This document shows, in pieces, positions 723 through 61,428 of a stretch of DNA of 64,000 nucleotides. Numbering within the stretch: the stretch's first letter is position 1; every line of letters begins with the position of its first letter. Origin of the DNA: Ramlibacter terrae (lineage in GTDB: Bacteria; Pseudomonadota; Gammaproteobacteria; Burkholderiales; Burkholderiaceae_C); the NCBI GenBank assembly GCA_013127575.1, contig CP053418.1, forward strand, positions 744,001-808,000, given 5' to 3'. The position numbers and the translations under genes were made by a program. The notes under the pieces were generated by a model. The model did no database searches. It saw only the letters and a program-made list of their open reading frames with translations, and was not told the origin of the DNA.

Positions 723-2467
723 CTACTTTACTTCCGGCACGCGCTTCCCATTGGCCGGAGGCACCGGGAAGGCGAAGTCCACGCCCCGGTCCGCCTGCGT
801 CACGTTCTCCGGGAACAGCTTGCGGTAGCCGCGCTCTGCACTGGGTTCCGTCACCGGCTCCGCCTTCATCCGCGCCGCCAGTTCCTCGTCGGACACCAGC
901 AGCGCCAGCTCGCGGTTGCTCACGCTGAGCCGGATGCGGTCGCCGTTGCGCACCCAGGCCAGCGGCCCACCCACGGCGGCCTCGGGCGTCACATGCAGCA
1001 CCACGGTGCCGAATGCCGTGCCGCTCATGCGGCCGTCGCTGATGCGCAGCATGTCCTTCACGCCTTGCCGTGCCAGCTTCATCGGCATCGGCAGCGCGCC
1101 GGCTTCCGGCATGCCGGGGTGGCCCTTGGGGCCGATGCGCTTGAGCACCAGCACGTCGTCGGCGGTCACGTCGAGGTCCGGGTCATCGATGCGCGCGGCC
1201 AGGTCGGCGGCGTTCTCGAAGACCACGGCGCGCCCCTCGTGCTCCATCAGCTTCGCGCTGGCCGCCGACTGCTTGATGATCGCGCCGCCGGGCGCCAGGT
1301 TGCCGCGCAGCACGGCGATGCCGCCCTGCGGGTAGATCGGGTTGTCGAACGGACGCACCACGTCCTGCTTGAACGCCGGACGCGCCGCTTCCAGTTCCTC
1401 GCCGAGCGTGCGGCCGGTGACGGTCATCGCGTCCGGGTGCAGCAGCGGCTTCAGCTCGCGCAGCAGCGTCGCCATGCCGCCCGCGTGGTGGAAGTCTTCC
1501 ATGTAGTGGTCGCCGCTGGGCTTCAGGTCCAGCAGCACCGGCGTTTCGCGGCCCATGCGGTCCAGCGCCTGCAGGTCCACCTCGAGCCCCATGCGGCCCG
1601 CCATCGCCGTCAGGTGGACGATGGCGTTGGTGGTGGAGCCGCCGATCGCCAGCAGCACGCGCATCGCGTTCTCGAAGGCCTGCGGCGTCAGGATCTTGTC
1701 GATCGTCAGCCGCTGCTTCGCCGCCTGCACCGCGATGCGCCCGCTTTCTTCGGCGACGCGCATGCGGTCGGCCGTCACCGCCGGCGGGCTGGCGCCGCCC
1801 GGCACCGTCATGCCCAGCGCTTCGGAAACGCAGGCCATCGTGCTGGCCGTTCCCATCACCGAGCAGGTGCCCACGCTGGCCACGAGCTGGTCGTTGACGT
1901 CGTCGATCTCTTCCTGGTCGATGTCCTGCGCACGGAAGCGCGCCCAGTAGCGCCGGCAATCCGTGCACGCGCCGACGCGCGCGCCGCGGTGCGAGCCGGT
2001 CAGCATCGAACCGGTGATCAGTTGCACGGCGGGCAGCCCGGCGGACGCCGCGCCCATCAACTGCGCCGGCACCGTCTTGTCGCAGCCGCCGATCAGCACC
2101 ACCGCGTCCATCGGCTGCGCGCGCACCTCTCCTCGGTGTCCATCGCCATCAGGTTGCGCAGGTACATGCTGGTGGGCGACGCGAAGCTCTCGTGCAGCGA
2201 GATCGTCGGGAACTCCATCGGCAATCCGCCGGCCAGCATGATCCCGCGCTTGAGCGCCTCGATCAGCGCGGGGGCGTTGCCGTGGCACGGGTTGTAGGCG
2301 CTGCCGGTGCTGGCGATGCCGATCACCGGGCGGTCCAGGGCGGCGTCGGTGTAGCCCGCGCCCTTGATGAAGGCCTTGCGCAGGAACAGCGAAAAGCCTT
2401 CGTCGCCGTAGCTGGTGAGGCCCTTGCGCATGCCCGTGGCGGGCGGTTTCGGATTGTCGTTGCTCAT
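723..2467 (-). CDS. IlvD/Edd family dehydratase (dihydroxy-acid or sugar-acid dehydratase)
   Basis: About 580 residues. Iron-sulfur/metal cysteines typical of the family are visible: YNPCH near residue 61, GGCDK near 133, GACTDCRR near 165 and GTCSVMGTA near 206; GGSTTNAIVHL and HHAGGM follow. The enzyme would remove water from a 2,3-dihydroxy acid to give a 2-keto acid. Details such as YNPCH and the DapA-family gene 3 kb away fit an L-arabonate-type sugar-acid dehydratase as well as branched-chain IlvD; I cannot decide. The frame breaks near 2132: one missing base (an ATG codon, giving EEMVRAQPMD) restores it. The chosen start (MSNDNPKPP) gives the usual family length. Confidence 0.85.
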
Positions 2468-2623
2468 CGGTCTGCCTCGCTTTGCAGCGCGATCATGCCC
2501 GCAGCCGGGGCCGCCGGACTGTGGGTAAGTCTGTAGTGACCAGCCCGCCATGCCCCGCCAGAATGGCCCGGACCCGTGCCCCGGGCATGCGGCGTGAGTG
2601 CTTTTTCCTACGGAGACAAGTCC

Positions 2624-3575
2624 ATGAAGTCCATCAAGGCCACCATCCTCGCACTGCTCGCCGGCTTCGGCCGGCCGCGGGCGCCCAGAACATTTCCATC
2701 GCCACCGGCGGCACCGGCGGGGTGTACTACCCCATGGGCGGCGGCATCGCGGCCGTGCTCTCCAAGCACGTGCCCGGCATGTCGGCCACGGCCGAAGTCA
2801 CGGGCGGTTCGGTCGACAACCTCAAGCTGATCGGCAGCGGCAAGCCCTACGTCGGCTTCACCATGACCGACGCCGCGCAGGACGCCGCCAAGGGCGAAGA
2901 CAAGTTCAAGGGCAACAAGGTACCCCTGAAGACGCTGATGGTGCTGTACCCGAACCGCATGCACGTGGTGACGGTCGAAGGCAAGGGGATCACGAAGTTC
3001 TCCGACCTGAAGGGCAAGCGCGTTTCCACCGGCTCGCCCGGCAGCGCCACCGAGGTGATGGCCTTCCGCGTGATCGAGGCGGCCGGTTTCGACAAGGACA
3101 AGGACCTCAAGCGCGAGCGCCGGGCGCCGCCGAATCGGTCAATGCCATCAAGGACGGCAAGATCGACGCGTTCTTCTGGGTGGGCGGCCTGCCGACCGCC
3201 GCCGTGTCCGACCTGGCGAACACGCCCGGCACCAAGCTCAAGATGATCGACCATGCCGAGCTGGTGGCCAAGATGAACCAGAAGTACGGCAACCTGTACG
3301 TCGAGGACACCATCGAGAAGTCGGTCTACAAGGGCATGGACACCGACAACAAGCAGGCCACCGTGATGAACATCCCGGTGGCCCACGAGACGATGGACGA
3401 GAAGACCGCGTACAACATCGTCAAGACCATCTTCGACAAGAAGCCCGACCCGGTGGCGGTGCACAAGGAAGCCGAGAACTTCAAGCTGGAGAACCAGAAG
3501 AGCGCCGCCTCGCCGGTGCCCTTCCACCCCGGCGCGGTCAAGTACTTCGCCGAAAAAGGCATCAAGCTGAACTGA
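2624..3575 (+). CDS. TAXI-family TRAP transporter solute-binding protein
   Basis: Periplasmic receptor of a tripartite ATP-independent transporter. It starts with a signal peptide (MKSIKATILALLAGF), then the TAXI hallmark ISIATGGTGGVYYPMGGG, and later SDLKGKRVSTGSPGSATE and DAFFWVGGLPTAAV. About 318 residues once repaired, the normal size. Two single-base losses interrupt it: near 2675 in the signal peptide, and near 3121, where adding T recreates CCTGG and gives RLGAAESVNA. The fused permease starts 13 bases downstream, so binding protein and permease form one unit. The ligand cannot be read from the sequence; neighbours (DapA-like, RraA-like, IlvD-like) suggest an organic or sugar acid. Confidence 0.9.
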
Positions 3576-3588
3576 CGCGGCGCACCGC

Positions 3589-5615
3589 GTGAGCGAGATC
3601 CCCACCACGACGGCGCCCGCCGTCGTGAGCTCCGAGGCGCTGCACAAGGCCGAGGAGTTCATCGAAGCCGAGGAAGGCGCCGCCAACAAGCTCAAGGGCT
3701 GGCTGGCGGTGTTCGTCATGGTGACGGCCATCGTCATGTCGGCCTTCCACCTCTACACGGCCTACGCGATCGTGCCGACGCAGACGCTGCGCCCGGTGCA
3801 CGTGGCGTTCGTGCTGTTCCTGACCTTCCTCGTGTTCCCGGTGGCCGCGCGCTACCGCCACCGCATCATGTGGTGGGACTGGCTGGCCGCGGCCCTGTCA
3901 ATCGCGGTGGTGGTCTACCTGATCCGGGCGGCGACGACTTCACCGACCGCAACACCTCTCCGCTGCCGTGGGACATCGTGTTCGGCATTGCGCTGATCGT
4001 GCTGGTGCTGGAGGCCATGCGCCGCACCAACGGCTGGATCATGCCGGTCATCACGTGTGCCTTCCTCGCGTACGCGCTGGCGGGCCCATGGCTGCCGGCG
4101 CCGTGGACGCACAAGGGCTACGAGATCGGGCGGCTGGTGGGCGTGATGTACATGACGCTCGAAGGCATCTTCGGCGTGGCGGTCGACGTCTCGTCGTCGC
4201 TCATCATCCTGTTCACGATCTTCGGCGCCTTCCTGCAGTACTCGCAGGCCGGCAAGTTCTACATCGACTTCTCGTTCTCGGCGATGGGCGGCAAGCCGAC
4301 GGGCGCCGGCCGCACGGTGGTGCTCGCGTCCTTCCTGCTCGGCGGCCCGTCGGGCTCCGGGGTGGCGACGACGGTCACGCTGGGCTCCGTCGCGTATCCG
4401 ATGCTGGCGAAGGTCGGCTACGAGCGCAACGCGGCTGGCGGATTGCTCGCGGCGGGCGGACTCGGCGCGATCATCTCGCCGCCCGTGCTGGGCGCCGCGG
4501 CCTTCCTGATCGCCGAGTTCCTCAAGATCTCGTACCTCGACGTGCTGCTGATGGCGGTGATCCCGACGCTGCTCTTCTACTTCGCGCTGTTCCTGATGGT
4601 GGAGATCGACGCGCGCAAGTACGGCATGGGCAACGTGGCCTTCGAGAAGGTCGACACGGTCTGGAACCTCACGCGCAAGTACTGGTTCCACTTCCTGTCG
4701 CTGGTCTCCATCGTGGCCTTCATGATGTGGGGCTTCTCGCCGGTGATGTCTGTGTTCGCGGCGACCATCGTCTCGTTCTTCACCAGCTTCCTGCGGCGCG
4801 ACACGGCGCTGCTGCCCTACGACCTGTTCACCGGGCCGGGATCGTTCTGGAAGCGGCTGGGCGGATCGGGCCTGGTCAAGGCGATGGAAGGCGGCTCGAT
4901 CGGCATGCTGAACGTGGCGGCCACCTGCGCCGGCGCCGGCATCATCGTCGGCGTCGTCACGCTCACCGGGCTGGGCCTGAAGTTCAGTTCCATCGTCGTC
5001 GACTACGCCGCCGGTTCGCTGTTGCTCACGGCGATCTTCACCGCGCTGGTGGTGTGGATCGTAGGGCTCGCGGTGCCGGTGACCGCGTCGTACATCATCT
5101 GCGCCGTGATCGCCGCCCCGGCGCTGATCAAGCTGGGCGTGCCCGACTTCGCGGCGCACATGTTCATCTTCTACTACGCCGTGCTGTCGGAGGTTTCGCC
5201 GCCCACCGCGCTGTCGCCGTTCGCCGCCGCCGCCATCACGGGCGGCGATCCGTACAAGACCACGCTGCAGTGCTGGAAGTACACCGTGCCGGCCTTCCTC
5301 GTGCCGTTCATGTTCGTGCTGGATCCGAGCGGGCTCGGGCTGCTGCTCATGGGCTCGACCAAGGCGCTGGCCACGGCCAACTGGTGGATGATCGCCGAGG
5401 TGACGATCACCTGCGCCATCGGCATCGCCGCGCTGGCGGCCGGCTTCCGGGCTGGGCGCTGCGGCGCACCAACAAGGTCGAGCGCGTGCTGTTGATCGTC
5501 GCCGGCGTGGCGCTCGCCTACCCGAGCTGGGGTCGCCGACGTCATTGGCCTCGGCGGCGTCGCGGCCGTGCTGGCGATGCAGTTCATGCGACGGCACGAG
5601 CCGCAATTGGCATGA
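3589..5615 (+). CDS. TRAP transporter fused permease (TAXI-associated 4TM/12TM)
   Basis: Inner-membrane permease in which the small DctQ-like and large DctM-like parts are fused, about 675 residues with many hydrophobic segments. Characteristic stretches: FVLFLTFLVFPVAAR, LEAMRRTNGW, the GGPSGSGVATT loop, NAAGGLLAAGGLGAIISPPVLG and YYAVLSEVSPPTALSPFAA. Start is GTG (MSEIPTTTAP). Frame breaks: near 3931 (one base missing, consistent with CCTGG or an extra G), near 5450 (T missing from CCTGG, giving GFLGWALRR), and near 5531 (one base extra or two missing), after which the protein ends in VADVIGLGG...RRHEPQLA. It works with the TAXI receptor just upstream. Composite repeat copy 2 follows the stop. 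Confidence 0.9.
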
Positions 5616-5624
5616 TGATGACCT

Positions 5625-5683
5625 GCTGTCATCCCGGGCTCGACCCGGGATCCATGGATTGCGGGGCAAGCCCGCAATGACAA
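5625..5683. repeat. Composite double-hairpin intergenic repeat, copy 2 (inverted)
   Basis: Reverse-complement orientation relative to copy 1: GCTGTCATCCCGGGCTCGA, then ATCCATGGATTGCGGG, ending AATGACA. The two hairpins are CCCGGGCTCGACCCGGG and TTGCGGGGCAAGCCCGCAA. It lies between the permease stop and the start of the DapA-family gene, so it is in the transcript of the cluster and could affect downstream expression; that role is inference. Confidence 0.8.
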
Positions 5684-5693
5684 GGCTTTGCAC

Positions 5694-6628
5694 ATGAACC
5701 AACTCACTGCCGACGCCAAAGGCGTCTACCTGATCACGGTCACGCCCTTCACCGACAGCGGCGCGCTGGACCTCGCCAGCACCGACCGCATGGTGGACTT
5801 CTGCCGGAGAAGGGCGTCACCGGCCTGACCATCCTGGGGATCATGGGCGAAGCCACCAAGCTCACCGCCGACGAGTCGCGCACCTACGTCCGGCAGGTGC
5901 TGGCGCGGGTGGGTGGCCGCGTGCCGGTCGTGGTCGGCGCTTCCGCGCCCGGCTTCGCGCCGATGAAGGAACTGAGCGATGCGGTGATGGAGATGGGTGC
6001 GTCCGGCGTCATGGTCGCGCCGCCGTCCACGGTGCGCACCGACGACCAGATCGTCGCCTACTTCGACCAGGTGAACGAGACGCTCGGGCCGAAGGTGCCG
6101 TGGGCGCTGCAGGACCACCCGGTCTCCACCGGCGTGCAGATGTCGGCATCGGTCATCCTGCGCATCCTGAAGAACTCGCCCACCTGCGTGATGCTCAAGC
6201 ACGAGGACTGGCCGGGGCTGGCGAAGCTGTCGGCGATCCGCGCCGCCGGCGAACGGGGCGACGTGAAGCGCGTGTCCATCCTCACCGGCAACGGCGGCGG
6301 CCTGTTCCTGCCGGAAGAGATGACGCGCGGCGCCGACGGCGCCATGACGGGCTTCGCGTATCCGGAGATGATGGTCGACGTGGTGGCGGCGCATGCGCGC
6401 GGCGACGTCGAACGCGCGCACGACCTGTTCGATGCCTACCTGCCGCTGGCGCGCTACGAGCAGCAGGCCGGCGTCGGCCTGGCGGTGCGCAAGCACATCC
6501 TGCAGCAGCGAGGCGTGATCGCGTCGGCGGCCGTGCGCAAGCCCGGCCCGAAGCTGTCGGCCCAGGACGTCGCCGACATCGCGCTGCTGACGCGGCGGCA
6601 GGAAAAGCGTTTGCGCGAGATCGGCTGA
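5694..6628 (+). CDS. DapA-family aldolase/dehydratase (dihydrodipicolinate synthase-like)
   Basis: A cytoplasmic TIM-barrel lyase of about 311 residues. The N-terminal GVYLITVTPF, GITGLTILGIMGEATKL-type phosphate/carboxylate-binding segment (the usual GTTGE is GIMGE here) and the Schiff-base lysine in VMLKHEDWPG (about residue 169) are seen. The tyrosine motif of true DapA (YNVP) is replaced by LQDHPVSTG, typical of non-lysine-biosynthetic members acting on 2-keto acids, so a keto-acid aldolase or dehydratase is more likely than lysine synthesis. One base is missing near 5805; adding T recreates CCTGG (FCLEKGVTG). The stop is 11 bases before the RraA-like gene, with a good ribosome site between them. 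Confidence 0.85.
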
Positions 6629-6639
6629 AGGAGGACACG

Positions 6640-7358
6640 ATGAGCGACACCCCGAACATGGACCTCGATGCGAAGGCGCGCGAGATCCTCACCCAGGTCA
6701 CGACGGCCACGCTGACGACCGTGCTGCTGAAGAAGGGCCTGCGCAACCTGTGGATCCGCGGCTCGCGGCCGATCCGCACCGGTCAGCCGCGGCTGGTCGG
6801 CCGCGTGTTCACGCTGCGCTTCGTGCCCGCGCGCGAAGACTGGCGACGCCGGAATCGTGGTCGTCGCCCATCTCGACGCGGGCCGCCATCGAGGCGATGC
6901 CGCCCGGCTGCATCGCCGTGGTCGATTCGATGGGCGTGCAGGACGCCGGCATTTTCGGCGACATCCTGTGCGCGCGCATGGCCAAGCGCGGCATCACGGC
7001 GCTGGTCACCGACGGCGTCGTGCGCGACCTGCACGGCGTGCTCGGCACCGGCCTCAACGTCTGGTGCAGCGGCGCCGCGGCGCCCGCGTCGGTGGCGGGG
7101 CTGACGTTCGTCGACTGGCAGCGTCCCATCGGCTGCGGCGGGGTCGCGGTGTTCCCGGGCGACGTCGTGGTCTGCGACGACGATGGCGCGGTGCTGATCC
7201 CCGCCGCGATGCTCGACCACGTGCTGGAGCACGCGCCCGAGCAGGAGCGGCTGGAAGGCTGGATCATGGACGAGGTGAACCGGGGCGCCGCGCTGCCCGG
7301 CCTGTATCCGCCGAATGCGGAGAACAAGGCGCGCTACGAGGCGTCGAAGAAGAAGTAA
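6640..7358 (+). CDS. RraA-family protein (hydroxy-keto-acid aldolase/decarboxylase-like)
   Basis: About 239 residues of the RraA/HMG aldolase fold. The key conserved block VTDGVVRDLHG carries the Arg-Asp pair that binds substrate and metal in the aldolase members, and it is followed by GGVAVFPGDVVVCDDDGAVLIP. Presence of the Arg-Asp pair argues for catalysis (aldol cleavage of 4-hydroxy-2-keto acids or oxaloacetate decarboxylation) rather than the RNase E inhibitor role. One C is missing near 6844; CTGG becomes CCTGG and gives REDLATPESW. It is the last gene of the TRAP-DapA-RraA run and ends facing the convergent IclR gene across a short palindrome. Confidence 0.85.
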
Positions 7359-7363
7359 GCGTC

Positions 7364-7388
7364 GTCATTCCCGCGAAGGGGGGATGAC
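7364..7388. repeat. Short palindromic repeat between convergent genes
   Basis: GTCATTCCCGCGAAGGGG followed by GGATGAC: outer arms GTCAT/ATGAC and inner arms CCC/GGG around CGCGAA. It resembles the common genomic repeat of the form GTCATTCCCGCGAAGGCGG. It may also serve as a weak bidirectional terminator for the RraA-like and IclR genes. Confidence 0.5.
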
Positions 7389-7393
7389 GGAAT

Positions 7394-8182
7394 TCAGGAG
7401 CCTGCCAGCCGCTGCGAAATCAAGCGCGCCGTCTCCCGCAACCGCGGCAGCATCGCCTCCTGCATCTGCCGCGGCGGCGTGCGGTTCACGGCCGCTGATG
7501 TTGATCGCGGCGATGGTTCGGCCCGCGCGGTTGACGACCGGTGCCGCCATCGACACCAGCCCTTCTTCCAGTTCCTGGTTCACCAGGCACCAGCCTTGCC
7601 GCCGCGCCTGCTGCACCTTTGCCAGCAGCGCATCGGCATCGGTCAACGTGTGGCGCGTGCGCGCTTCGAGCGGGCTCGCGCGCAGCAGCGGCACCACCTC
7701 TTCGTCCGGCAATCCCGCCAGCAGCACGCGGCCCATCGACGTGCAGTAGGCCGGCAGCCGCGAGCCCACGCCCAGCGTGTTGCGCATGATCTTGCGGGTG
7801 GACACGCGCAGCACGTAGATGATGTCCGTGCCCTCCAGCACGCCGGCCGAGCACGACTCCGGACCTGCTCCACCAGCGCTTCCATCAGCGGCTCGGCCAC
7901 GTTCCACATCGGCATCGACGACAGGTAGGCGAAGCCGAGGTCGAGGATGCGCGGTGTCAGCATGAACTGCTTGCCGTCCGATTCCACATAGCCCAGCGTC
8001 TGCAGCGTCAGCAGGATGCGCCGCGCGCCGGCGCGCGTCAGGCCGGTGCGGCCCGCCACTTCCGTTAGCGTCTGCCGTGGCGCCGCCGCGCTGAACGAGC
8101 GGATCACCTCCAGCCCGCGGGCGAACGACTGCACGTAGGCGTCGCCCGGGCGAAGGTCGGCTGTGGGGCTTTTGTCGGCCAT
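7394..8182 (-). CDS. IclR-family transcriptional regulator (PcaR-like)
   Basis: About 263 residues. N-terminal winged helix-turn-helix: YVQSFARGLEVIRSF, LTEVAGRTGLTRAGARRILLTLQTLGYVE. The C-terminal effector domain follows (IIYVLRVSTRKIMRNTLGVGSRLPAYCTSMGRVLLA, SMAAPVVNRAGRTIAAINIS). Divergent from pcaI with a near-palindrome between the two, so it very likely controls the pcaIJF operon in response to a beta-ketoadipate-pathway compound, as PcaR/PcaU proteins do. Frame breaks: near 7861 (restoring CCAGG or CCTGG) and near 7467 (one extra or two missing bases), after which it ends RTPPRQMQEAML...RLAGS. Assignment to IclR is firm; the effector is inferred. Confidence 0.88.
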
Positions 8183-8194
8183 GTAGAATTCATT

Positions 8195-8215
8195 ATACGA
8201 ACACCGGTTCGGTAT
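8195..8215. promoter_or_regulatory. Putative IclR operator in the iclR-pcaI intergenic region
   Basis: Near-perfect inverted repeat ATACGAAC-ACCG-GTTCGGTAT (one extra G in the right arm), with a further GCGAACAATT half-site just downstream (8216-8225). It sits 12 bases upstream of the regulator's start and 25 bases upstream of pcaI, the right place for a divergent operator. Confidence 0.6.
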
Positions 8216-8239
8216 GCGAACAATTCAGGGAGACCTCCC

Positions 8240-8938
8240 ATGATCGACAAGATCGCGCCTTCGGTTGCCGATGCGCTGGCGGGCGTGAAGGACGGCGCCA
8301 CCGTCCTGATCGGCGGCTTCGGCACCGCCGGCATCCCGGGTGAACTGATCGACGGCCTGATCGAACAGGGCGCGCGCGACCTCACCGTCGTCAACAACAA
8401 CGCGGGCAACGCCGACCACGGGCTGGCCGCGCTGCTGAAGACGGGACGCGTGCGCAAGATCATCTGCAGCTTTCCGCGCAGGTCGACAGCTACGTCTTCG
8501 ACGAGCTGTACCGCAGCGGCAAGCTGGAGCTGGAACTGGTGCCGCAAGGCAACGGCCGAGCGCATCCGCGCCGCCGGCGCCGGCATCGGCGCGTTCTTCT
8601 GCCCGACGGCCGCCGGCACCGAGCTGGCGCAGGGCAAGGAGACGCGCGTGATCGACGGCAAGACGTACGTGCTCGAGTACCCGATCCACGGCGACGTCGC
8701 GCTGATCAAGGCCGAGGCGGGGGACCGCTGGGGCAACCTCGTGTACCGCAAGTCGGCGCGCAACTTCGGCCCGGTGATGGCCACCGCCGCGAAGCTCACG
8801 GTCGCGACGGTGCACGAGATCCGGCAACTGGGCGAGCTCGATCCCGAAGCGATCGTCACGCCCGGCATCTACGTCGGCAAGATCGTGAAGATCGACCGCG
8901 TGGCCACGCAGGCCGGCGGTTTCAAGAAGGCGGCATGA
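8240..8938 (+). CDS. pcaI: 3-oxoadipate CoA-transferase subunit A
   Basis: Alpha subunit of the CoA-transferase that moves CoA from succinyl-CoA to 3-oxoadipate. It shows [49 protein letters not shown] and [18 protein letters not shown], all typical of PcaI. About 233 residues. The frame stays open through the middle only by chance: a base is missing near 8483 (CGCAGG for CGCCAGG) and two near 8563 (AACGGC for AACCTGGC); repaired, the middle reads [18 protein letters not shown] and VPQGNLAERI. Both sites are CCWGG. It overlaps the next gene by ATGA, so translation of the two subunits is coupled. Confidence 0.9.
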
Positions 8939-9579
8939 CCATGGCTTACCAGCGACGCACCAAGGACCAGCTCGCCGCGCGCGTGGCGCAGGACATCCAC
9001 GACGGCGCCTACGTCAACCTCGGCATCGGCATGCCGACGACCGTGGCGAACCACATTCCCGCCGGCCGTGAGGTGATCCTGCAAAGCGAGAACGGCATCC
9101 TCGGCATGGGCCCGGCGCCCCCACCGGCGGCGAGGACTACGACCTGATCAACGCAGGCAAGCAGCCGGTGACGCTGCTGGCCGGCGGCGCCTACTTCCAC
9201 CACGCCGACTCGTTCGCGATGATGCGCGGCGGCCACCTCGACATCTGCGTGCTGGGCGCCTTCCGGTGTCGGCCACCGGCGACCTCGCCAACTGGAGCAC
9301 CGGCGAGCCCGGCGCGATCCCCGCGGTCGGCGGTGCGATGGACTTGGCCATCGGCGCCAAGCAGACCGGGTGATGATGGACCTGCTGACCAGGCAGGGCC
9401 AGAGCAAGGTGGTGGAGCGCTGCACCTACCCGCTGACCGGCCCCGGCTGCGTCAAGCGGATCTACTCCGACCTTGCGACGCTGGAATGCACGCCGCAAGG
9501 GCTGAAGCTGGTGGACGTGGTGGAAGGCCTCACGCACGCCGAACTCGAACAACTGGTGGGCCTCCCCATCGCCGCCTGA
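8935..9579 (+). CDS. pcaJ: 3-oxoadipate CoA-transferase subunit B
   Basis: Beta subunit, about 216 residues, with [14 protein letters not shown] and the catalytic-glutamate region [10 protein letters not shown], then [20 protein letters not shown]. The ATGA overlap with pcaI sets the start at 8935; an ATG at 8941 is also possible. Three losses: near 9117 in a C run, near 9264 (A of CCAGG, giving GAFQVSATGDL) and near 9367 (T of CCTGG, giving KQTWVMMD). The heterodimer makes 3-oxoadipyl-CoA for the thiolase encoded 15 bases downstream. Confidence 0.9.
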
Positions 9580-10917: not shown

Positions 10918-11641
10918 ATGAAACCAGAAACCACCCTCGTCACCGGGGCCAGCAGCGGCATTGGCCGCGCGATCGCCGAAGCCGTGCTGGCACAGGCCCG
11001 CACGGTCCTCAACCTCGACCACAAGCTTCCCGAGTGGTCGCACCCCAACCTGGTGTCGCTGCAGGCCGACCTGACCAGCGAGCGCGACACGCGCGACCGC
11101 TGCGAGCAGGTCGCGCGCGAGTTCAACGTGACCGCCATCGTCAACAACGCCGGCGCCACGCGGCCCGGCACGATCGACACGGCGACCGTCGCCGATCTCG
11201 ACTACGTCGTCGCGCTGCATTTCCGCGCGACGATGCTGCTGACGCAAGCCGTGCTGCCGACGCTGCGCGCCAGCGGGCACGGCCGCATCGTCAACATCGC
11301 CTCGCGCGCCGCGCTGGGCAAGACCGAACGCATCGTCTATTCCGCCACCAAGGCGGGACTGGTCGGGATGACGCGCACGCTGGCCATGGAGCTGGGCGGC
11401 GACGGCATCACCGTGAACGCGGTCGCCCCCGGGCCGATCGCGACCGAGCTGTTTCGCAACAGCAACCCCGAAGGCGCGCCGCGCACCCAGCGGATCATCG
11501 ACAGCATCGTCGTCAAGCGCATCGGGACGCCGGAAGACGTGGCCCGCGCCGCGCTCTTCTTCCTCTCGCCGGACAACGGCTTCGTCACCGGCGGTGCTGT
11601 ACGTCTGTGGCGGCACCACGCTGGGCGTCGCCCCCGTCTGA
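10918..11641 (+). CDS. SDR-family NAD(P)-dependent oxidoreductase
   Basis: About 241 residues of the classical short-chain dehydrogenase fold: nucleotide-binding TGASSGIGRA at the N-terminus, NNAG motif at IVNNAGAT, active-site Ser and YxxxK in NIASRAALGKTERIVYSATKAG, and AVAPGPIATELF. The C-terminus reads FVTGQVLYVCGGTTLGVAPV after replacing two lost bases (CA of CCAGG) near 11595. It would reduce or oxidise a hydroxy/keto group; the substrate is unknown. The Bug receptor gene follows after 35 bases, suggesting both serve one imported compound. Confidence 0.88.
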
Positions 11642-12825: not shown

Positions 12826-13755
12826 ATGGAGACAAACGACAAGATCGGATGGATCGGCCTCGGCCGGATGGGCGAGGCCATGGTCAAGCGGCTGCTCGGG
12901 GCGGCTTCGGGGCCAGCGTGTGGAACCGCACCCGCAGCAAGGCGGAGCCGCTGGCCGCGTACGGCGCGCACCTCGCCGCCAGCAAGCTCGAACTGGCGCA
13001 ATGCGAGACCGTGTTCACCATGGTCTCGACCACCGACGACCTGAAGGACGTGCTGTTCGGCGAAGGCGGCCTCGTCACCGGCGAGCGCAAGCCGCGGCTG
13101 GTGGTCGACAGTTCGTCCATCTCGCAGGAAGGCTCCGCGCAGGTGCGCGAGAAGCTGGAAGCGCTCGGCGTCGCCTATCTCTGCGCGCCTGTCTCGGGCA
13201 ACGCCAAGGTGGCGAAGGCCGGCAAGCTGCTGATCGTCGCCTCGGGCCCGAAGGATCTCTACGACAAGGTGCAACCCTACCTGCAGGCCATGGGCCGCAA
13301 GGCGATGTGGGTGGGCGAGGGCGAACTGGCGCGCATCTGGAAGATCGCGCACAACACGATGTTCGGCGTGGTGATCCAGAACCTGTGCGAGATCACGGTG
13401 CTGGCCGAGAAGGCCGGCATCCCGCGCCACGTCTTCCTCGAGAGCATCAACGATTCGGTGCTCGGCTCCATGTACACGCGCTACAAGACGCCGGTGCTGA
13501 CCAACCTCACCTTCGAACAGGTGACCTTCACGCCCAAGCTGCTGCTCAAGGACATGGACTTGGGCATGGGCGCGGCCAAGGCGCACGGCGTGGCGATGCC
13601 CGCGGCCGCGGCCACGCGCGAGAGTCGGTGGCCCGCATGGTCGGCCGCGGCTACGGCGACATCGACTTCGCCGTGCTGCTGGCCGAGACGGCCAAGGACG
13701 CGGGGCTCGAACTGAAACCCGAGAACGTGAAGATCAGCGACGGCCGGAATCCTGA
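12826..13755 (+). CDS. NAD(P)-dependent beta-hydroxyacid dehydrogenase (HIBADH/GarR family)
   Basis: About 311 residues. N-terminal Rossmann fold IGWIGLGRMGEAMVKRLL and SVWNRT, the substrate-binding block APVSGNAKVAKAGKL, and the catalytic lysine in ARIWKIAHNTMFGV. It would oxidise a beta-hydroxy acid such as 3-hydroxyisobutyrate, or reduce tartronate semialdehyde. Breaks near 12900 and 13625 each need one base; a third near 13745, where adding T gives CCTGG, makes the protein end in DGLES with stop 13753-13755 instead of running into the next gene. A ribosome site (GAAGGAGG) and the second Bug gene follow at once. Confidence 0.85.
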
Positions 13756-13787
13756 GCCGCCGCTGCCGGCATTCGAAGGAGGCTCGC

Positions 13788-16148: not shown

Positions 16149-16723
16149 ATGTTTCCTGACCCGTGGCTCGATCGTTGGTTGCCCCTCATCCGGGAGCGGG
16201 CGGCAGGCCGGCCGGTGCTCGAAGTGGGGTGCGGGCACGGCGACGACACCGTCACGCTGGTGGCCGCGGGCCTGGCGGTGATCGGCTTCGACCTGTCGCG
16301 CACGGCGGTGACCGTCGCGCGGTTGCGCGCGCCGGCGGCGCGGATCACCTGCCGTGACGTGCGCGACCCCTTGCCCGAAGCCGCCAGCGATCTGGGCGTC
16401 GTGATCGCCAGCCTGTCGCTGCACTACTTTCCCGGCGTGAGACCGAGCGCATCGTCGCCGGGTTGCGCGCGGCGCTCCGGCCGCATGGCGTCATCGCGTG
16501 CCGCCTGAACTCCACGGAGGACAAGAACTTCGGCGCGCAGGGCGGCGTCGAGATCGAGCCCGGCCTGTTCGAAGTGGACGGCCACCCCAAGCGCTTCTTC
16601 GACCGCGACAGCGCGGAGGCGCTGTTCGCGCGGGGATGGAAGATCCTCTCCATCGAACACGTGGTGACCGGCAAGTACCTGAAGCCGAAGGTTGCACGGG
16701 AGCTGGTCGCCGAGCGGGTGTAG
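16149..16723 (+). CDS. Class I SAM-dependent methyltransferase
   Basis: About 191 residues with the Rossmann methyltransferase core: SAM-binding motif I VLEVGCGHGDDTVTL, motif II acidic residue in VIGFDLSRTAV, motif III ITCRDVRDPLP and motif IV VIASLSLHYFPW. T is missing near 16434; restoring CCTGG gives HYFPWRETERIVAGLRAALRP. No domain points to a particular substrate. It ends 6 bases from the end of the convergent Spy-like gene. Confidence 0.8.
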
Positions 16724-16729
16724 CACGCC

Positions 16730-17238
16730 TCAGCGCGCGTAGCCGCGCAGCCGGTCGTACGCCGCCACCCGGTCCGCGCGCAGCAAGCGCGTCTGCTCTC
16801 AGTGCGTGTTCAGGTGCGACGCACGGATGCGCGCCTGCAGCCCGCCGATCGCCGCGGTGAGTTCACTCACGGTGTCGGGTGTCGCGCGACGTGTCCGGAA
16901 CAGCTCGTCCAGGCGCCGTTCGGCGGCGACGAGTTCCGCGCCGAGTGCGCGCACCTCCGACTTGTGGCGTTGCATCAACGCCTGCGTCTGGGCTTGCTGC
17001 GATGGGCTGAGCTCGAGGGCCTGCGCGTGTTCGAGCACGTGCATCGGGCCCGGGTGCCCGTTCAGTTCCGCCGCCTTGGCGAGCCCGAAGCCCCGGCCCT
17101 CGAGCCGGGCACGCTCTCCCGGGCCGACAGGGCCTTGATGTCGCGCGCTTCTTCACCGGCGTACGGTGAATGGGCGTGGTGCTGTGCCGAGGCGTGGGCG
17201 CAGGCGAGCAAGGCGAGGGCCGGGAGCAGTCTGTTCAT
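16730..17238 (-). CDS. Periplasmic Spy/CpxP-like (heavy-metal-sensor-type) protein
   Basis: Small exported helical protein, about 170 residues. Signal peptide MNRLLPALALLACAHASAQ, a His-rich start of the mature part (HHAHSPYAGEE), then the helical core PMHVLEHAQALELSPSQQAQTQALMQRHK and ERRLDELFRTR, the pattern of Spy/CpxP/ZraP proteins. Breaks near 17112 (CCTGG restorable) and near 16804, where CACCTGGAG is read as CACTGAGAG and makes a false stop; the true end is HLEQTRLLRADRVAAYDRLRGYAR at 16730. Likely a periplasmic chaperone or metal-stress protein. It is divergent from the Crp-family gene. Confidence 0.7.
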
Positions 17239-17272
17239 GGCTCGATGCTGGAGCATCGGCCCCGGTGCTGCC

Positions 17273-17817: not shown

Positions 17818-17890
17818 CTTCGCCCCGGGCTGACCATCGATGCGGTTCAGGCTGCTTTTTCCGAACCCCGAAGCGGCGTATGGTCGCCGC

Positions 17891-46531: not shown

Positions 46532-48368
46532 CTAAGCGTCCTTGTTCCACGCGGGGATGTCCTCCTCGCCGCGGCGCCGCCGCTCCTCGCGCTCGGCGCG
46601 CTCGCGCGCCATCTGCTCCTCGAGCTGGTGCCGGCCTTCCTTGGCCACCGCGATCATGCGGGCGCGGTCGCGGTAGAGCGGGTACATCTTCTCGAACAGT
46701 TCGAGGTTGTGGCGGCGAAAGCGCATCGCCTGCCGCCGCGCCTCGTGCGGCGCTTCGCCCAGCAGTTCCAGCACCGTACGGCCGCTGCGCAGGCTCGACT
46801 CGAACACCTCGCGCTCCACGCGCATCACGCCGCGGTCGCGCAGCGCGTTCCAGTGCGTCACGTCGCGCGCGCGGGCCACCAGTTGCAGGTGGGGGAAATG
46901 CTCGCTCACCAGGTCCACGATGCGCAGCGACTGCTCCTTGTCGTCGACGGCGATCACCAGCACGCGCGCCGATCCGGCCCCCGCCGTGCGCAGCAGGTCG
47001 AGCCGCGTGGCGTCGCCGTAGTGCACCTTGTAGCCGAACGAGCGCGCCGACTCGATCATGTCGGCGTCGTGGTCCAGCACGGTGGCGGCGATGCCCTCGG
47101 CGTCCAGCAGGCGGCCGATGATCTGCCCGTAGCGCCCGAAGCCCGCGATGATCACCGGCGCGTGCTGCGGCTCGCTCAGTTCTTCCATGACCTTCGCCGC
47201 GCCCTTGGCGAGCCGCGCCGCCCAGCGGTCCGCGGCCAGCAGCATCAGCGGCGTGAGCAGCATCGACAGCGTGATCGCGGCCACCAGCAGCGACGACGTG
47301 GGCGCGTCGAGCACGCGCGCGCCAAGCGCGGTCTGCAGCACCACGAAGCCCACTTCGCCGCCTTGCGCCAGCAGCACGATGAACACCGGCCGCTCGCCCG
47401 CCGGGATCGGCATCAGGCGCGTCATCACCCAGAGCACCAGCGCCTTCGCGACGAGGAAGCCGATCACGATCGCCGCCACCAGCAGCGGCTGCTGCAGCAC
47501 CACGGCGAAGTCGATGCTCATGCCGATGGCGATGAAGAACAGGCCGAGCAGCAGCCCCTTGAACGGCTCGATGTCGGTCTCGAGTTCGCGCCGGTATTCG
47601 CTTTCCGCCAGCAGCACGCCGGCGAGGAAGGCGCCCAGCGCCATCGACAGCCCGACGGAGTGCATCAGGTAGGCCGTGGCCACCACGAGCAGCAGCGCCG
47701 CCGCGGTGAAGATCTCCGGCGACTCGCTGCGCGCGATCCAGCGCAGGGTGGGGCGCAGCAGCAGGCGTCCGCCCAGCACGATGGCGGCGATCACGCCGAT
47801 GGCCTTGGCTGCGCCCAGCCAGCCGCTGCCCTGCGCTTGCGCGTCGGCCACCGCCAGCAGCGGCAGCAGCGCCAGCACCGGGATGGCCGCCACGTCCTGC
47901 AGCAGCAACACGCTCAACGCGCTGCGGCCCGAAGTGGTGGGCATCAGGTTCCGGTCGGCCATGCCGCGCAGGCCCGTGGCCGTCGACGAATCGGCGAGCG
48001 CGAGCGCACCGACCGCGGCGATGCGCCAGTCGACGCCGCAGGCGATGGCGATGCCCGCCATCACCGCCGCGGACCCGAACAGCTGCACGCTGCCCCAGCC
48101 GAAGATCGGCCGCCGCAGGTTCCAGAGAGGGCGCGGCTCCAGTTCGAGGCCGACCGGGGAACAGCATCAGCACCACGCCGAACTCGGCGAAGTGCAGCAC
48201 GTCCTGCACGTTGGGTACCAGCTTCAGCCCCCGGGGCCCGATGGCGATGCCGGCGGCGAGGTAGCCGAGGATGGCGCCGAGGCCGAGCGCACGCGAAAGC
48301 GGAACGGCGATCACCGCCGCCGCGAGGTAGATGAAGCTGAAGCTCAGCCAGGCCGGTGCGTGTTCCAT
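46532..48368 (-). CDS. kefC: KefB/KefC-type monovalent cation:proton antiporter
   Basis: About 612 residues. Membrane part of a CPA2 exchanger (residues 1-390): [97 protein letters not shown]. Then an RCK/TrkA-N domain: [44 protein letters not shown], and a charged C-terminal tail. It would release K+ under electrophile stress, gated by glutathione adducts. The only break is near 48157 where CCTGG is read as CCCCGG (true [13 protein letters not shown]). TGATG overlap with the KefF-like gene. Confidence 0.9.
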
Positions 48369-49064: not shown

Positions 49065-49681
49065 ATGCCGGTCGTTGTCGTTGCGAACCCGAAGGGCGGG
49101 GTGGGCAAGTCCACCGTCGCCACCAACATCGCCGGCTATTACGCCAGCCGGGGGCACCACGTGATGCTAGGCGATGCGGACCGGCAGCAATCATCGCGCC
49201 TTTGGCTGGGCTTGCGGCCGCCGGAAGCGCGGACGATCGCCGGATGGGACATCGGCGAGGGCCGGATCGCCAAGCCGCCGCGCGGCACGACGCACGTCGT
49301 GCTCGATACGCCGGCCGGCCTGCAGGGCAAGCTCTTCGGGGAAGCGCTGCGCCACGCCGACAAGGTGGTGGTGCCGCTGCAGCCCAGCGTGTTCGACATC
49401 TTCGCCACGCGCGCCTTCTGGACGAACTGGCGCAGCACCGCAAGTCGCACCGCATGCAGGTCGGCATCATCGGCACGCGCGTCGACGCCCGCACCATCTC
49501 CGCCGACAAGCTGCAGGAGTTCGTGGGCGGCCTGGGCCTGCCGGTGCTGGGCTACCTGCGGCCGACGCAGAACTACGTGCACCTCGCAGCCCGCGGGCTG
49601 ACGCTGTTCGACGTCGCCCCGAACAAGGTCGAGCGCGACCTGGAGCAATGGCAGGGGATCACCCGCTGGCTCGACAGCTGA
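49065..49681 (+). CDS. ParA/MinD-type ATPase
   Basis: About 205 residues of the deviant Walker A family: VVVVANPKGGVGKSTVATNIAGYYASRG with the signature KGGxGKST, GDADRQQSSRLWL, and HVVLDTPAGLQGKL in the Walker B position. C is missing near 49428 (CTGG for CCTGG, AFLDELAQHRKSHRMQVGIIG). No ParB or centromere-like repeats are adjacent, so it is an orphan ParA, more like those that position cytoplasmic or membrane complexes than a plasmid partition protein. Confidence 0.88.
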
Positions 49682-53045: not shown

Positions 53046-54203
53046 ATGACTAGTATTTCGAAGATCGCGGCGCTGCTGATGGCGGCCGGTGGGATCGCCG
53101 GCGCGGCCCACGCGGTGGAGGACCTGCCCGGCGGCCCGGCCGTCCGCCAGCTCAACCTGCACGCCGCCGCCACCCGCATCGGCGTCGAGATCGCCTGGCT
53201 GCACTGGTTCATGCTGATCACCTGCATCGTGATCTTCGTGCTGGTGTTCTCGGTGATGTTCTATTCCATCTGGAAGCACCGCAAGTCGGTCGGCCACAAG
53301 CCGGCCAACTTCCACGAGTCGGTCACCGTCGAAGTGATCTGGACCATCATCCCCTTCCTGATCGTGATCGGGATGGCGCTGCCGGCCACGAAGGTGCTGG
53401 TCGCCGCCAAGGACACCAGCAACGCCGACATCACCATCAAGGCGACCGGCTACCAGTGGAAGTGGGGCTACGACTACCTCAACGGCGAAGGCACGGGCAT
53501 CAGCTTCCTGTCGGCGCTGGACACCACGCACCGTGAAATGTCCAACGACGGCGGCAACGCGGCCAGCAAGCCCAACGACTACCTGCTGAAGGTCGACAAC
53601 CCCGTGGTCGTCCCCGTCAACAAGAAGGTCCGCGTCATCACCACGGCCAACGACGTGATCCACGCCAGGGCATCCCGGCCTTCGGCCTGAAGCAGGACGC
53701 GATCCCCGGCTTCGTGCGCGACACCGGTTCCGCAGCGAGAAGACCGGCGACTTCTACGGCCAGTGCTACGAGCTGTGCGGCAAGGAACACGCCTACATGC
53801 CGATCCACGTGAAGGTGGTCTCGGCGCAGGAGTACACGGCCGGGTGGCCGAGCAGGGCAAGAAGATGGCCGCCAAGCAGGACGACCCGGCCAAGGTCTGG
53901 ACGCTGACCGACATCGTCGCCCGCGGCGAGAAGGTCTATGCCTCCAATTGCGCCGCCTGCCACCAGCCCAACGGCAAGGGCGCCGGCCCGATCAAGCCGC
54001 TGGACGCCTCGGCCATCGTGCTCGACGCCGACAAGACCAAGGAAATCCACGTGGTGCTCAATGGCCGTGGCGCCATGCCCGCACGGAAGCAGCTGAGCGA
54101 CACCGACATCGCGGCCGTGATCAGCTATACCAAGAACAACTGGTCCAACAAGACCGGCCGGGTGGTGCAGCCGTCCGAAGTGCTGGCCCAGCGCGGCAAG
54201 TAA
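53046..54203 (+). CDS. ctaC: caa3-type cytochrome c oxidase subunit II with C-terminal cytochrome c
   Basis: About 387 residues: signal segment, two membrane helices (IAWLHWFMLITCIVIFVLVFSVMFYSIW, VIWTIIPFLIVIGMALPA), the CuA domain with CYELCGKEHAYMP, and a fused cytochrome c with VYASNCAACHQPNGKGAGPIKP (CAACH haem site). This makes the enzyme of caa3 type. Three breaks, near 53670 (DVIHAWGIPAFG), near 53725 (RDTWFRSEK) and near 53841 (YTAWVAEQG), all at CCTGG. Because this subunit is needed for respiration, it is the best proof that the breaks are not real. Confidence 0.93.
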
Positions 54204-56655: not shown

Positions 56656-56827
56656 GCGTGCTGCATACCGTCAAGGCGGTGGCCTGGGCTTTCCGGGCAT
56701 CCGCAAGCGCAGCGGCTACGAGGAAGACCTCGGCAAGCTGAACCCCTTCGCGATCATCGCGGTGGCGCTCGTCGGCGTCGCCCTGTTCGTCGGCGGGCTG
56801 ATCGCGCTGGTCAACTGGATCGTTTGA
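56652..56827 (+). CDS. DUF2970 family membrane protein
   Basis: About 58 residues: MSVLHTVKAVAWAFLGIRKRSGYEEDLGKLNPFAIIAVALVGVALFVGGLIALVNWIV, cited here only as landmarks: AWAFLGIRKRSGYEEDLGKL and one C-terminal helix. GTG start overlaps the cox11 stop. T is missing near 56692 (CCTGG), while an intact CCTGG stands 14 bases before it. Constant companion of cox operons in Burkholderiales. Confidence 0.85.
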
Positions 56828-56862: not shown

Positions 56863-57744
56863 ATGAGCTCTAGCGCACCGGGGACCACGCCCCACTACTA
56901 CGTGCCCCAGCCCTCGCGCCACCCGGCGTCGGCGGCGCTCGGGCTGTTCTTCATCATCCTCGGCGCGTCCCAGTGGATCAATGGCCACGACTGGGGCAAG
57001 TGGTCGCTGTTCGCCGGCCTGCTGTGGCTGTTCTGGGTGCTGTTCCAGTGGTTCGGCGACTCGATCCGCGAGAGCGAGACCGGCCAGTACGGCCGCAAGA
57101 TCGACCTCTCGTTCCGCTGGAGCATGAGCTGGTTCATCTTCTCGGAAGTGATGTTCTTCGGCGCCTTCTTCACCGCCTTGTGGTGGATGCGCACGCACTC
57201 GGTGCCGGCGCTCGGCGGCCTCGACAACGCGCTGCTGTGGCCCGACTTCAAGGCCGTGTGGCCGAGCACCGCGCCCGGCACCACCGCTTCGCCCGGCGGC
57301 ATCATCGAGCCCTTCCAGACCATGGGCCCGTTCTGGCTGCCCACGATCAACACGGCGCTGCTGCTGTCCTCGGGCGTCACGCTGACGATCGCCCACCACG
57401 CGCTGCGCGAGAACCACCGCGGCCGCACCATCGCCTTCATGTGGGCGACCGTGCTGCTGGGCATCGTCTTCCTGTTCGTGCAGGGCTACGAATACGCGCA
57501 CGCCTACTCCGACCTGAACCTCAAGCTCAGCTCGGGCGCCTACGGCTCCACGTTCTTCATGCTCACCGGCTTCCACGGCTTCCACGTGCTGGTCGGCATG
57601 CTGATGCTGCTGTTCATCACGCTGCGCCTGATGAAGGGCCACTTCACCGCCGACAAGCACTTCGGCTTCGAAGGCGCCGCCACGGTACTGGCACTTCGTG
57701 GACGTGGTGTGGCTGGGGCTGTACATCTGGTGTACTGGATGTAA
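56863..57744 (+). CDS. ctaE: Cytochrome c oxidase subunit III
   Basis: About 294 residues, seven membrane helices: HPASAALGLFFIILGASQWI, SMSWFIFSEVMFFGAFFTALWWMR (conserved SEVMFF), QGYEYAHAYSDLNLKLSSGAYGSTFFMLTGFHGFHVLVG. The true C-terminus is WYWHFVDVVWLGLYIWVYWM; near 57687 CCTGG is read as CCACGG and near 57731 a G is lost, so the listed end differs but the stop is the same. Followed by a bidirectional terminator. Confidence 0.95.
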   Translation: MSSSAPGTTPHYYVPQPSRHPASAALGLFFIILGASQWINGHDWGKWSLFAGLLWLFWVLFQWFGDSIRESETGQYGRKIDLSFRWSMSWFIFSEVMFFGAFFTALWWMRTHSVPALGGLDNALLWPDFKAVWPSTAPGTTASPGGIIEPFQTMGPFWLPTINTALLLSSGVTLTIAHHALRENHRGRTIAFMWATVLLGIVFLFVQGYEYAHAYSDLNLKLSSGAYGSTFFMLTGFHGFHVLVGMLMLLFITLRLMKGHFTADKHFGFEGAATVLALRGRGVAGAVHLVYWM

Positions 57745-57767
57745 GCAGCGCCGCAGCGCAAGAAAGA

Positions 57768-57790
57768 AGGGCCGCGCAAGCGGCCCTTTT
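57768..57790. terminator. Bidirectional intrinsic terminator
   Basis: GGGCCGC-GCAA-GCGGCCC stem-loop with TTTT on the plus side and CTTTCTTT on the minus side, between the convergent subunit III and DUF2909 genes. Confidence 0.8.
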
Positions 57791-58006: not shown

Positions 58007-58036
58007 TGCCCCGATTATCGGCGGCGGTGCCCGGCC

Positions 58037-59423: not shown

Positions 59424-60563
59424 ACGGTTCGCTGTACGACCTCGCACCGGCCTTCGAGATGGCGCTGCTGGGCCTCGGGCTGGCCGCCATCCCGCTCGGG
59501 TGGGTCTGGTTGCGCAAGCGCAAGGCGGGCCCCGCGCAGTGGCTTGCCGCCGTCACCGTGCTCGCCCTGTACCTGACGTTCGACTGGTGCTGGTCGGCGC
59601 CTTCACGCGCCTCACGGATTCCGGCCTTGGTTGCCCCGACTGGCCGGGCTGCTACGGCAACGCCAGCCCGCTGGGCGCGGTCCACCAGATCGCGGCGGAG
59701 CAGGCGCGCATGCCCACCGGCCCCGTCACCCACGGCAAGGCATGGATCGAGATGGTCCACCGTTACCTCGCCACCGGCACCGGCGCGGTGGTAATGGCGC
59801 TGGCGATCGCGACGTGGCTGCTGCGCAAGCGCGGGCTGCCCCTCAGCCCCTTCTGGCCCACGATCACGCTGGTCGGCTTCTGCATCCGGGGCGCGTTCGG
59901 CGCCCTGACGGTGACCATGAAGCTGTTCCCCGCGATCGTCACGCTGCACCTGCTGGGCGCGCTGCTGCTGCTCGCCTTGCTGACGATGCAGGCGGTGGCG
60001 TATCGCCATGCCGAGCGCGGCGCGGGGCCCGTCGCCGTCTCCGCCGGCGCGCGCGGCTGGCTGGTCGCCGCCTTCGCGCTGCTCTGGCTGCAGGTGGCGC
60101 TGGGCGGCTGGGTCAGCACGAACTACGCCGTGCTCGCCTGCAGCGAGTTCCCGACCTGCCGGGGCAGCTGGTGGCCGGCAATGGACTTCCGCGGCGGCTT
60201 CGAGTTGTGGCGCCACCTCGGCGTGAGTGGCAGCGGCGAGACCATCACCTTCGCCGCGCTCACCGCGATCCACTACACGCACCGGCTATTGGCCTATGCG
60301 CTGTTCGTCGTGCTGGGCCTGCTCTCCTGGCAGCTGCGCGGCGGACCGCTGCGCAAGGTGTCGCGCTGGATCGCCTTCCTCGCGTTCTGGCAGTTCGCGT
60401 CCGGCCTGTCGAACGTCGTGCTCGGCTGGCCGCTGGTGGCTGCCGTGGCGCACACGGCCGGCGCGGCGGGGCTGGTGGTGGTGCTGACGTGGGCGCTGCG
60501 TTCGAGCCGCAGCGAGCGCTTGGCCGCCGTTCCCATGATGGCCGGCCGGGGGCTTCGGCATGA
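59420..60563 (+). CDS. ctaA: Haem A synthase (COX15/CtaA)
   Basis: About 382 residues, eight membrane helices. Signature stretches: [72 protein letters not shown] and [12 protein letters not shown] with His ligands of the two haem sites. It converts haem O to haem A. C is missing near 59589 ([14 protein letters not shown]); Gln in CIQGAFGAL is read as Arg near 59887 (CCAGG as CCGGG); a G is lost near 60545, giving the end AGRGASA with an ATGA overlap into ctaB. Confidence 0.92.
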
Positions 60564-61428
60564 GCCGTTTCCAGCAGTTCTACCAACTGACCAAGCCGCG
60601 CGTGGTGCAGCTGATCGTGTTCTGCGCGCTGATCGGCATGGTGCTGGCGGTGCCCGGCGTGCCCCACGGAACGACGTGCGCATCGCCGTCATCGCCTGCG
60701 CCGGCATCTGGCTGGTGGCCGGCGCGGCCGCCGCTTTCAACTGCCTGGTGGAAAAAGGCATCGACGCCAAGATGCGCCGCACCTCGTGGCGCGCCACCGC
60801 GCGCGGCGAGCTGAGCGACTGGCAGACGCTGCTGTTCGCCGCCGTGCTGTGCGCCGCCGGCGGCGGTCTGCTGTACGCGTGGATCAACCCGCTGACGATG
60901 TGGCTCACGCTGGCCACCTTCGTCGGGTACGCCGTCATCTACACGGTGATCCTGAAACCGCTGACGCCGCAGAACATCGTGATCGGCGGCGCGTCGGGCG
61001 CGATGCCGCCGGTGCTGGGCTGGGCGGCCATGACGGGCAACGTCGGGCCCGAGGCGCTGATCCTGTTCCTGATCATCTTCCTCTGGACGCCGCCGCACTT
61101 CTGGGCGCTGGCGCTGTACCGCGTCGAGGACTACCGCAAGTCGGGGCTGCCGATGCTGCCGGTGACGCACGGCAACGAGTTCACGCGCCTGCAGATCCTG
61201 CTGTACACGCTGGTGCTGTTCGCCGCCTGCCTGATGCCGTTCGCCTACGGCATGAGCTCGTGGCTGTACCTCGCCGTGGCGATCGTGCTGAGCGTCGGCT
61301 TCACCGCCTATGGCTTTCGCCTCTGGCGCGAATACTCCGACGCGCTCGCGCGCAAGACCTTCCGTTTCTCGTTGATCCACCTGAGCGTGCTGTTCGCGGC
61401 GCTGTTGCTGGACCACTACCTGCTGTGA
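60560..61428 (+). CDS. ctaB: Protohaem IX farnesyltransferase (haem O synthase, CtaB/COX10)
   Basis: About 290 residues of the UbiA prenyltransferase fold with nine helices: [19 protein letters not shown], the first Asp-rich motif [45 protein letters not shown] and [32 protein letters not shown]. The break near 60670 lies at ACCTGG read as CACGG (true [16 protein letters not shown]). It farnesylates haem B for the CtaA step. Confidence 0.94.

Follow-up and report, generated by a model that had tools for sequence, protein, structure and literature searches.

Gene-breaking indels at CCWGG in the Ramlibacter terrae assembly point to nanopore errors at Dcm-type methylation

The window analysed here, a stretch of 64,000 nucleotides (G000:C1:744001-808000), belongs to the single-contig genome of Ramlibacter terrae (5,277,406 bp, 68.6% G+C) and contains genes broken by small insertions and deletions (indels). 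From comparison of this sequence with those of related genomes, we conclude that most of these gene-breaking indels are almost certainly uncorrected nanopore consensus errors at 5-methylcytosine in the motif CCWGG. The CCWGG errors may well reflect, across the whole genome, the activity of a restriction-modification cassette whose MvaI-like CCWGG endonuclease would be guarded by a Dcm-type C5 methyltransferase accompanied by its own Vsr, a combination also present in the Burkholderiales loci L212 and L213.

The window was aligned with 7 congeneric genomes (mean identity 76.0-84.5%, each covering 20.5-49.7 kb); sites covered by a single relative, or lying within some 12 columns of where an alignment ended, were left out. 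A majority of relatives supported 126 of the 270 frame-changing gap clusters detected. Events were termed clean when at least 3 relatives covered them and all agreed on a net change of 1-2 bases spanning at most 24; this retained 71 of the 126 (50 of -1, 11 of +1, 8 of -2 and 2 of +2 bases) and excluded the other 55. One relative or more had CCWGG at 53 of the 71 clean events (random expectation 11.3), and half or more of the covering relatives had it at 36 (random 3.4); the motif was counted when it lay in the event or at most 5 bases away, and the comparison was with random event-free positions. At the same events the control motifs CCSGG and CWWGG were found in at least one relative 5 and 11 times (random 7.5 and 8.1), GCWGC and CCWGC/GCWGG were counted 16 and 28 times (random 11.6 and 23.5), and homopolymers of at least 4 bases 14 times (random 14.7). 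Counted per site, 47 of the 364 window positions with CCWGG conserved in at least two relatives carried an indel, as compared to 10/232 for CCSGG (p = 5e-4), 8/269 for CWWGG (p = 6e-6), 19/538 for GCWGC and 38/1057 for CCWGC/GCWGG (p = 2e-9). When relatives were taken in turn as the focal genome, CCWGG indels numbered 4/330 in G011, 4/319 in G023, 3/299 in G014 and 2/289 in G021.

An earlier sequence-only reading of the window had proposed that indels cluster at CCWGG, which these counts bear out and which also holds outside the window; its estimate of about fifty of ninety breakpoints was about right, and the control motifs that it named for comparison do not carry indels as CCWGG does. Fourteen of the 15 sites that it gave as examples have a frame-changing gap and carry CCWGG in one relative or more; in 11 of the 15, half or more of the covering relatives have CCWGG, and the example at 59887 is not supported. 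The two CCWGG sites that it gave as intact are present in the sequence. These features are listed below by window position, none with an assigned strand; fractions refer to the covering relatives.

2100-61000: region of frame-changing indels, mostly at CCWGG of the relatives (53/71 clean unanimous indels)
151-155: intact CCWGG, read from the sequence
955-959: intact CCWGG, read from the sequence, start within one base
5802-5807: frame-changing indel at CCWGG; gap 6/6, CCWGG 4/6
9264-9265: frame-changing indel at CCWGG; gap 5/5, CCWGG 5/5
9367-9368: frame-changing indel at CCWGG; gap 5/5, CCWGG 5/5
11593-11595: frame-changing indel at CCWGG; gap 4/4, CCWGG 3/4
13742-13772: frame-changing indel with weak CCWGG support; gap 4/6, CCWGG 2/6 near 13745
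27249-27249: frame-changing indel at CCWGG, single relative; gap 1/1, CCWGG 1/1
30298-30303: frame-changing indel at CCWGG; gap 6/6, CCWGG 5/6
35640-35643: frame-changing insertion at CCWGG; gap 5/5, CCWGG 5/5
48156-48159: frame-changing insertion at CCWGG; gap 6/6, CCWGG 4/6
49418-49428: frame-changing indel at CCWGG; gap 5/5, CCWGG 3/5
53725-53726: frame-changing indel at CCWGG; gap 4/4, CCWGG 4/4
53822-53848: frame-changing indel, CCWGG in a minority; gap 4/4, CCWGG 1/4 near 53841
56692-56698: frame-changing indel, CCWGG in a minority; gap 4/4, CCWGG 1/4
57682-57687: frame-changing insertion at CCWGG; gap 6/6, CCWGG 6/6
59887-59887: unsupported example; frame-changing gap 0/7, CCWGG within 10 bases 0/7

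The analysis was extended to 380 kb of flanking DNA from both sides, compared with the corresponding regions of 3 relatives (matches below 74% identity being left out), which gave 114,107 bases covered by at least two relatives. With no motif preset, CCWGG had the lowest p-value of 378 pentamers in these flanks (5e-44; indels at 89/475 sites, background 2.9%), and the leading hexamers contained it; the pentamers with a higher indel rate, CTCCC (9/37) and CCCCC (6/25), had few sites. Among 200 unanimous flank indels, 132 coincided with CCWGG in a relative (random 16.6) and 24 with C4/G4 (random 24.4). A second modification motif was looked for and rejected; after masking of the CCWGG neighbourhoods the top pentamers were mainly C runs (CTCCC 11/59, CCCGC 38/603, CCCCC 8/52, GGGGA 11/106), followed by CATGG (23/380) and CATGA (17/243).

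A natural control was provided by genome G014, which we took to be R. montanisoli B156T, described in the same paper as the R. terrae type strain H242T and likewise sequenced by MinION according to the available text (PMC9705899). With other genomes as focal, CCWGG indels were found at 4/360 sites in B156T, 2/398 in G023 and 1/433 in G011. Unanimous indels amounted to 1.75 per kb in R. terrae, 0.48 in B156T (68 in 142.0 kb, 4 of the 68 at CCWGG), 0.21 in G023 and 0.13 in G011, whereas unanimous events outside CCWGG were of similar density in the two MinION assemblies, numbering 68 per 114.1 kb (0.60/kb) in R. terrae versus 64 per 142.0 kb (0.45/kb) in B156T. A search for PF00145 methyltransferases returned one match in R. 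terrae and none in B156T, and PF01555 (N6/N4 methyltransferases) had no match in either genome, the search being confined to these two families. Because this comparable MinION assembly from the same paper shows neither a PF00145 match nor a CCWGG excess, the excess follows the methyltransferase and not the platform or laboratory alone, in this single genome pair.

The nature of the changes was examined at 838 conserved CCWGG sites from the window and flanks. R. terrae was intact at 156 of these, carried an indel at 135 and differed only by a central W changed to C or G at 75; the rest comprised 471 other substitutions, which mostly fall on the wobble bases of codons and amount to ordinary divergence, and 1 in-frame gap. 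Oriented as CCTGG, the 135 indel alleles included 52 CCGG and 29 CTGG, so that the main errors were loss of the central W or of one C, or W read as C or G, with almost no deamination products. In the same orientation the central T had become C at 74/694 gap-free sites of R. terrae as compared to 2/651, 1/703 and 2/752 in relatives, whereas the second C had become T at 5/694 (relatives 2/651, 3/703 and 1/752) and a change of the fourth base from G to A was absent from the listed changes. Indels and centre changes together give a rough error fraction of about 57% (210/366 of the sites expected to read CCWGG), a value slightly too high because about 1% of background indels was not subtracted. This fraction varied with the 5' flanking base (A 0.72, C 0.82, G 0.39, T 0.59; p = 1.7e-8) and with the 3' one (p = 1.3e-6), a dependence more in keeping with a signal-level effect than with partial methylation.

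The single PF00145 enzyme of the genome answers to the C5-cytosine methyltransferase of Dcm type whose presence the sequence-only reading had predicted. It is encoded on an island at 3201-8500 of the contig (57.4% G+C, a single CCWGG at 8298) that follows gyrB and carries these genes:

G000:C1 3721-5214, plus strand: HNH protein of 497 residues, with a match to PADLOC models of type IV methyl-directed restriction (4e-16)
G000:C1 5312-6646, plus strand: MvaI_BcnI-family protein of 444 residues (Pfam MvaI_BcnI, 129.5 bits)
G000:C1 6667-7086, minus strand: Vsr (domain search)
G000:C1 7091-8188, minus strand: C5-methyltransferase (PF00145, 280.7 bits)

The methyltransferase scored 319.4 bits against TIGR00675 (cut-off 100.65), and beyond its C5-methyltransferase domain its closest similarity is to Dcm: the best matches in the PDB were 3lx6 and 3me5 (E ~1e-104), which we take to be Dcm structures, and 40 of 57 residues were identical in the stretch taken as the target-recognition domain. 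The endonuclease gene adjoining it is MvaI-like, since a profile built from the protein and four homologues matched R.MvaI with E 3.9e-8 and R.BcnI with E 0.23; searches of solved structures with the endonuclease sequence alone gave no match. The MvaI_BcnI family occurred in 2 of the 60 genus genomes searched, and relatives of the whole endonuclease protein in 5 of the 399 genomes searched in the order, R. terrae included. In L212 and L213 a piece of a Dcm-like methyltransferase, a Vsr-like gene (judged by eye) and the endonuclease stand in a row, and L211 has a Dcm-like methyltransferase together with the endonuclease. The position of the methyltransferase beside Vsr and an MvaI-like endonuclease therefore makes it look like part of a restriction-modification cassette, and the recurrence of the row in L212 and L213, and of the pair in L211, gives this cassette the appearance of a transferable one, as far as gene content can tell.

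Compared with the orphan C5-cytosine methyltransferase of the Dcm/M.EcoRII type in the E. coli dcm-vsr system, the R. terrae enzyme shares the match to 3lx6 and 3me5 and the adjoining Vsr, but is not an orphan: it lies on an island, has an endonuclease gene beside it and scores below the cut-off of the closer Dcm model NF007772. R.MvaI cleaves at CCWGG, and its partner M.MvaI is an N4 methyltransferase. The R. terrae endonuclease resembles R.MvaI by its profile match and its MvaI_BcnI family, but differs in having about 190 extra N-terminal residues and a C5 rather than an N4 methyltransferase as partner.

Several further observations concern this locus. The HNH protein, resembling type IV methyl-directed restriction enzymes, sits beside a system predicted to methylate host DNA. 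Methyltransferase homologues in L211 and L204 have an N-terminal extension resembling a helix-turn-helix, and a similar stretch occurs in other frames in R. terrae at 8188-8420 (minus strand), upstream of the catalytic open reading frame; the methyltransferase gene itself therefore seems split in the assembly. The neighbouring gyrB (547-3073, plus strand) is read as two overlapping open reading frames in different frames, one running from the ATPase to the Toprim/hook part and the next covering the insert and the C-terminal domains, as expected for consensus errors in an essential gene. Finally, another Ramlibacter genome, G007, encodes within L204 (G007:C1:3140000-3159900) a methyltransferase of Dcm-like type sharing 59% identity and, some 8 kb away, a more distantly related MvaI_BcnI protein (29%), at these positions:

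7595-8908 and 16507-17976: the two homologue genes of L204 (G007)

The sequencing record agrees with an origin of the indels in the consensus. According to the available text of the genome paper, the H242T genome is a Unicycler 0.4.7 assembly of MinION reads (306x coverage) from DNA extracted with phenol-chloroform, and 2,807 of its 5,653 genes are protein-coding (PMC9705899); the paper's main text makes no mention of "Illumina" (PMC9705899). Phenol-chloroform extraction suggests that native DNA was sequenced, and H242T falls in the class of genomes built from native-DNA nanopore reads without short-read correction, as far as that text describes it. The completeness of the genome is 63.7% in its quality figures and 95.6% in the same source (PMC9705899), for the same genome length.

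We propose that the Dcm-type methyltransferase of the lower-GC island next to gyrB would methylate, on each strand, the inner C of CCWGG, and that the CCWGG consensus would fail because the basecaller did not model the modified base. By our rough estimate, more than half of the true CCWGG sites are affected, the consensus losing the central W or one C, or calling W as C or G. Flanking bases influence which sites fail, as would be expected if a uniformly modified site gave a pore signal that is more or less ambiguous according to context. The errors would have stayed and split genes, gyrB included, because no short-read correction of the assembly is reported. The methyltransferase would accordingly be active on CCWGG in H242T, and the genes would be intact in the cell. 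The proposal of nanopore errors at Dcm-type methylation, already made in the sequence-only reading, is supported by the control motifs, the methyltransferase gene, the MinION record and the sister assembly without the effect.

Three other explanations were weighed. The genes could be truly broken, by genome decay with Dcm sites acting as mutation hotspots: the frameshifts do stand in the deposited sequence, and 5-methylcytosine is a known mutation hotspot. Deamination, however, would turn the inner C into T or the opposite G into A, and the changes observed are base loss or W to C/G, with the expected transitions at 5/694 sites or not listed; a split gyrB and 2,807 protein-coding genes out of 5,653 (from the available text of PMC9705899) are moreover hard to reconcile with a free-living isolate. 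We therefore reject decay, to which we attach next to no credence, on the spectrum of changes. The indels could also be ordinary nanopore errors in homopolymers and GC-rich sequence that overlap CCWGG through base composition, and the residual hot k-mers outside CCWGG are indeed mainly C runs such as CTCCC and CCCCC. Such an origin predicts equal indel density at control motifs and in B156T, and neither was seen: CCSGG, GCWGC and CCWGC/GCWGG stayed near background, and neither homopolymers of at least 4 bases nor C4/G4 were commoner at events than at random. Composition or homopolymers alone are thus rejected on the control motifs and the sister genome, and we regard them as extremely improbable.

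Restriction-site avoidance, in which CCWGG would really have been lost under the organism's own system and alignments at lost sites would resemble indels, has more in its favour. The observed/expected ratio of CCWGG is 0.51 in the window and 0.52 in the 380 kb, as compared to 0.89-0.97 in relatives, CCSGG being slightly above expectation (1.04 and 1.14). A test of synonymous loss counted third-position changes at 33/48 C|CTG|G in the window and 46/82 in the flanks; relative to controls the odds ratios were 9.99 and 7.53, as compared to 1.48-3.22 in seven tests on relatives. Those odds ratios are inflated, because mis-called sites leave the "same" class, and fall to about 3-4.5 after hand scaling by the error fraction of about 57%. 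Given 57% mis-called sites, the scarcity of CCWGG in the R. terrae assembly is likewise largely an artefact: raising the observed density by the error fraction brings CCWGG to about 4.5-5 per kb, where relatives have 4.8-7.2 per kb. Avoidance also leaves the frame-changing indels and the nonsynonymous W to C/G changes unexplained, and no such depletion is seen in G007 (observed/expected 0.92), a genome with homologues of both the methyltransferase and the endonuclease. We reject it as insufficient for the main cause and consider it highly unlikely in that role. Methylation-induced consensus error has, for its part, several observations to contend with. The synonymous CCWGG loss beyond that of relatives makes some mild real avoidance beside the errors possible. 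No relative had CCWGG at 18 of the 71 clean window events and at 68 of the 200 flank events, part of which fit the baseline of Oxford Nanopore Technologies sequencing. Indels at GGWCC were somewhat raised (9/133 in the window, 10/177 in the flanks; 1/113, 2/113, 1/112 and 1/104 in four relatives). The methyltransferase, finally, falls below the cut-off of NF007772, the closer Dcm model of NCBI (418.9 bits, cut-off 710), and above that of the dcm superfamily.

The phenomenon is a known artefact, of which H242T is a well-controlled new instance. In the available text of Wick, Judd and Holt (2019), Dcm motifs accounted for about 70% of the consensus errors of then-current Oxford Nanopore basecallers in K. 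pneumoniae, about 0.4% of the reference, the errors concentrating in CCAGG/CCTGG of native DNA (PMC6591954). The concentration at CCWGG is the same here, but the organism is a soil isolate of the Comamonadaceae, outside the Enterobacteriaceae, and the evidence is a deposited assembly without reads, with a sister control from the same paper (compare PMC6591954). Chiou et al. (2023), as far as the available text goes, reported modification-mediated nanopore errors at the lineage-specific motifs GCAGC and GCTGG in Listeria, using reads and whole-genome amplification (PMC10687267). As in that study, an error motif was obtained by comparison with relatives and weighed against methyltransferase-carrying systems; here the motif is CCWGG and matches a Dcm-like gene directly (PMC10687267). 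A limited literature search (Ramlibacter terrae; Ramlibacter with restriction-modification) returned no apparent report of the artefact or the cassette, which points to the CCWGG cassette being undescribed as far as that search reached.

If the window and flanks are representative, this publicly available, complete genome of a type strain would carry thousands of false frameshifts, and gene-content comparisons, pseudogene counts and restriction-site-avoidance statistics would be misled by the H242T assembly. The two genomes from one paper form a natural experiment, showing that in an assembly made from nanopore reads alone the motif at which errors gather can indicate which sequence a methyltransferase recognises. 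This idea has already been published for reads and for Listeria, in the text available (PMC10687267). If our interpretation is true, testing errors against relatives could assign C5-methyltransferase specificities from public nanopore-only assemblies, without reads.

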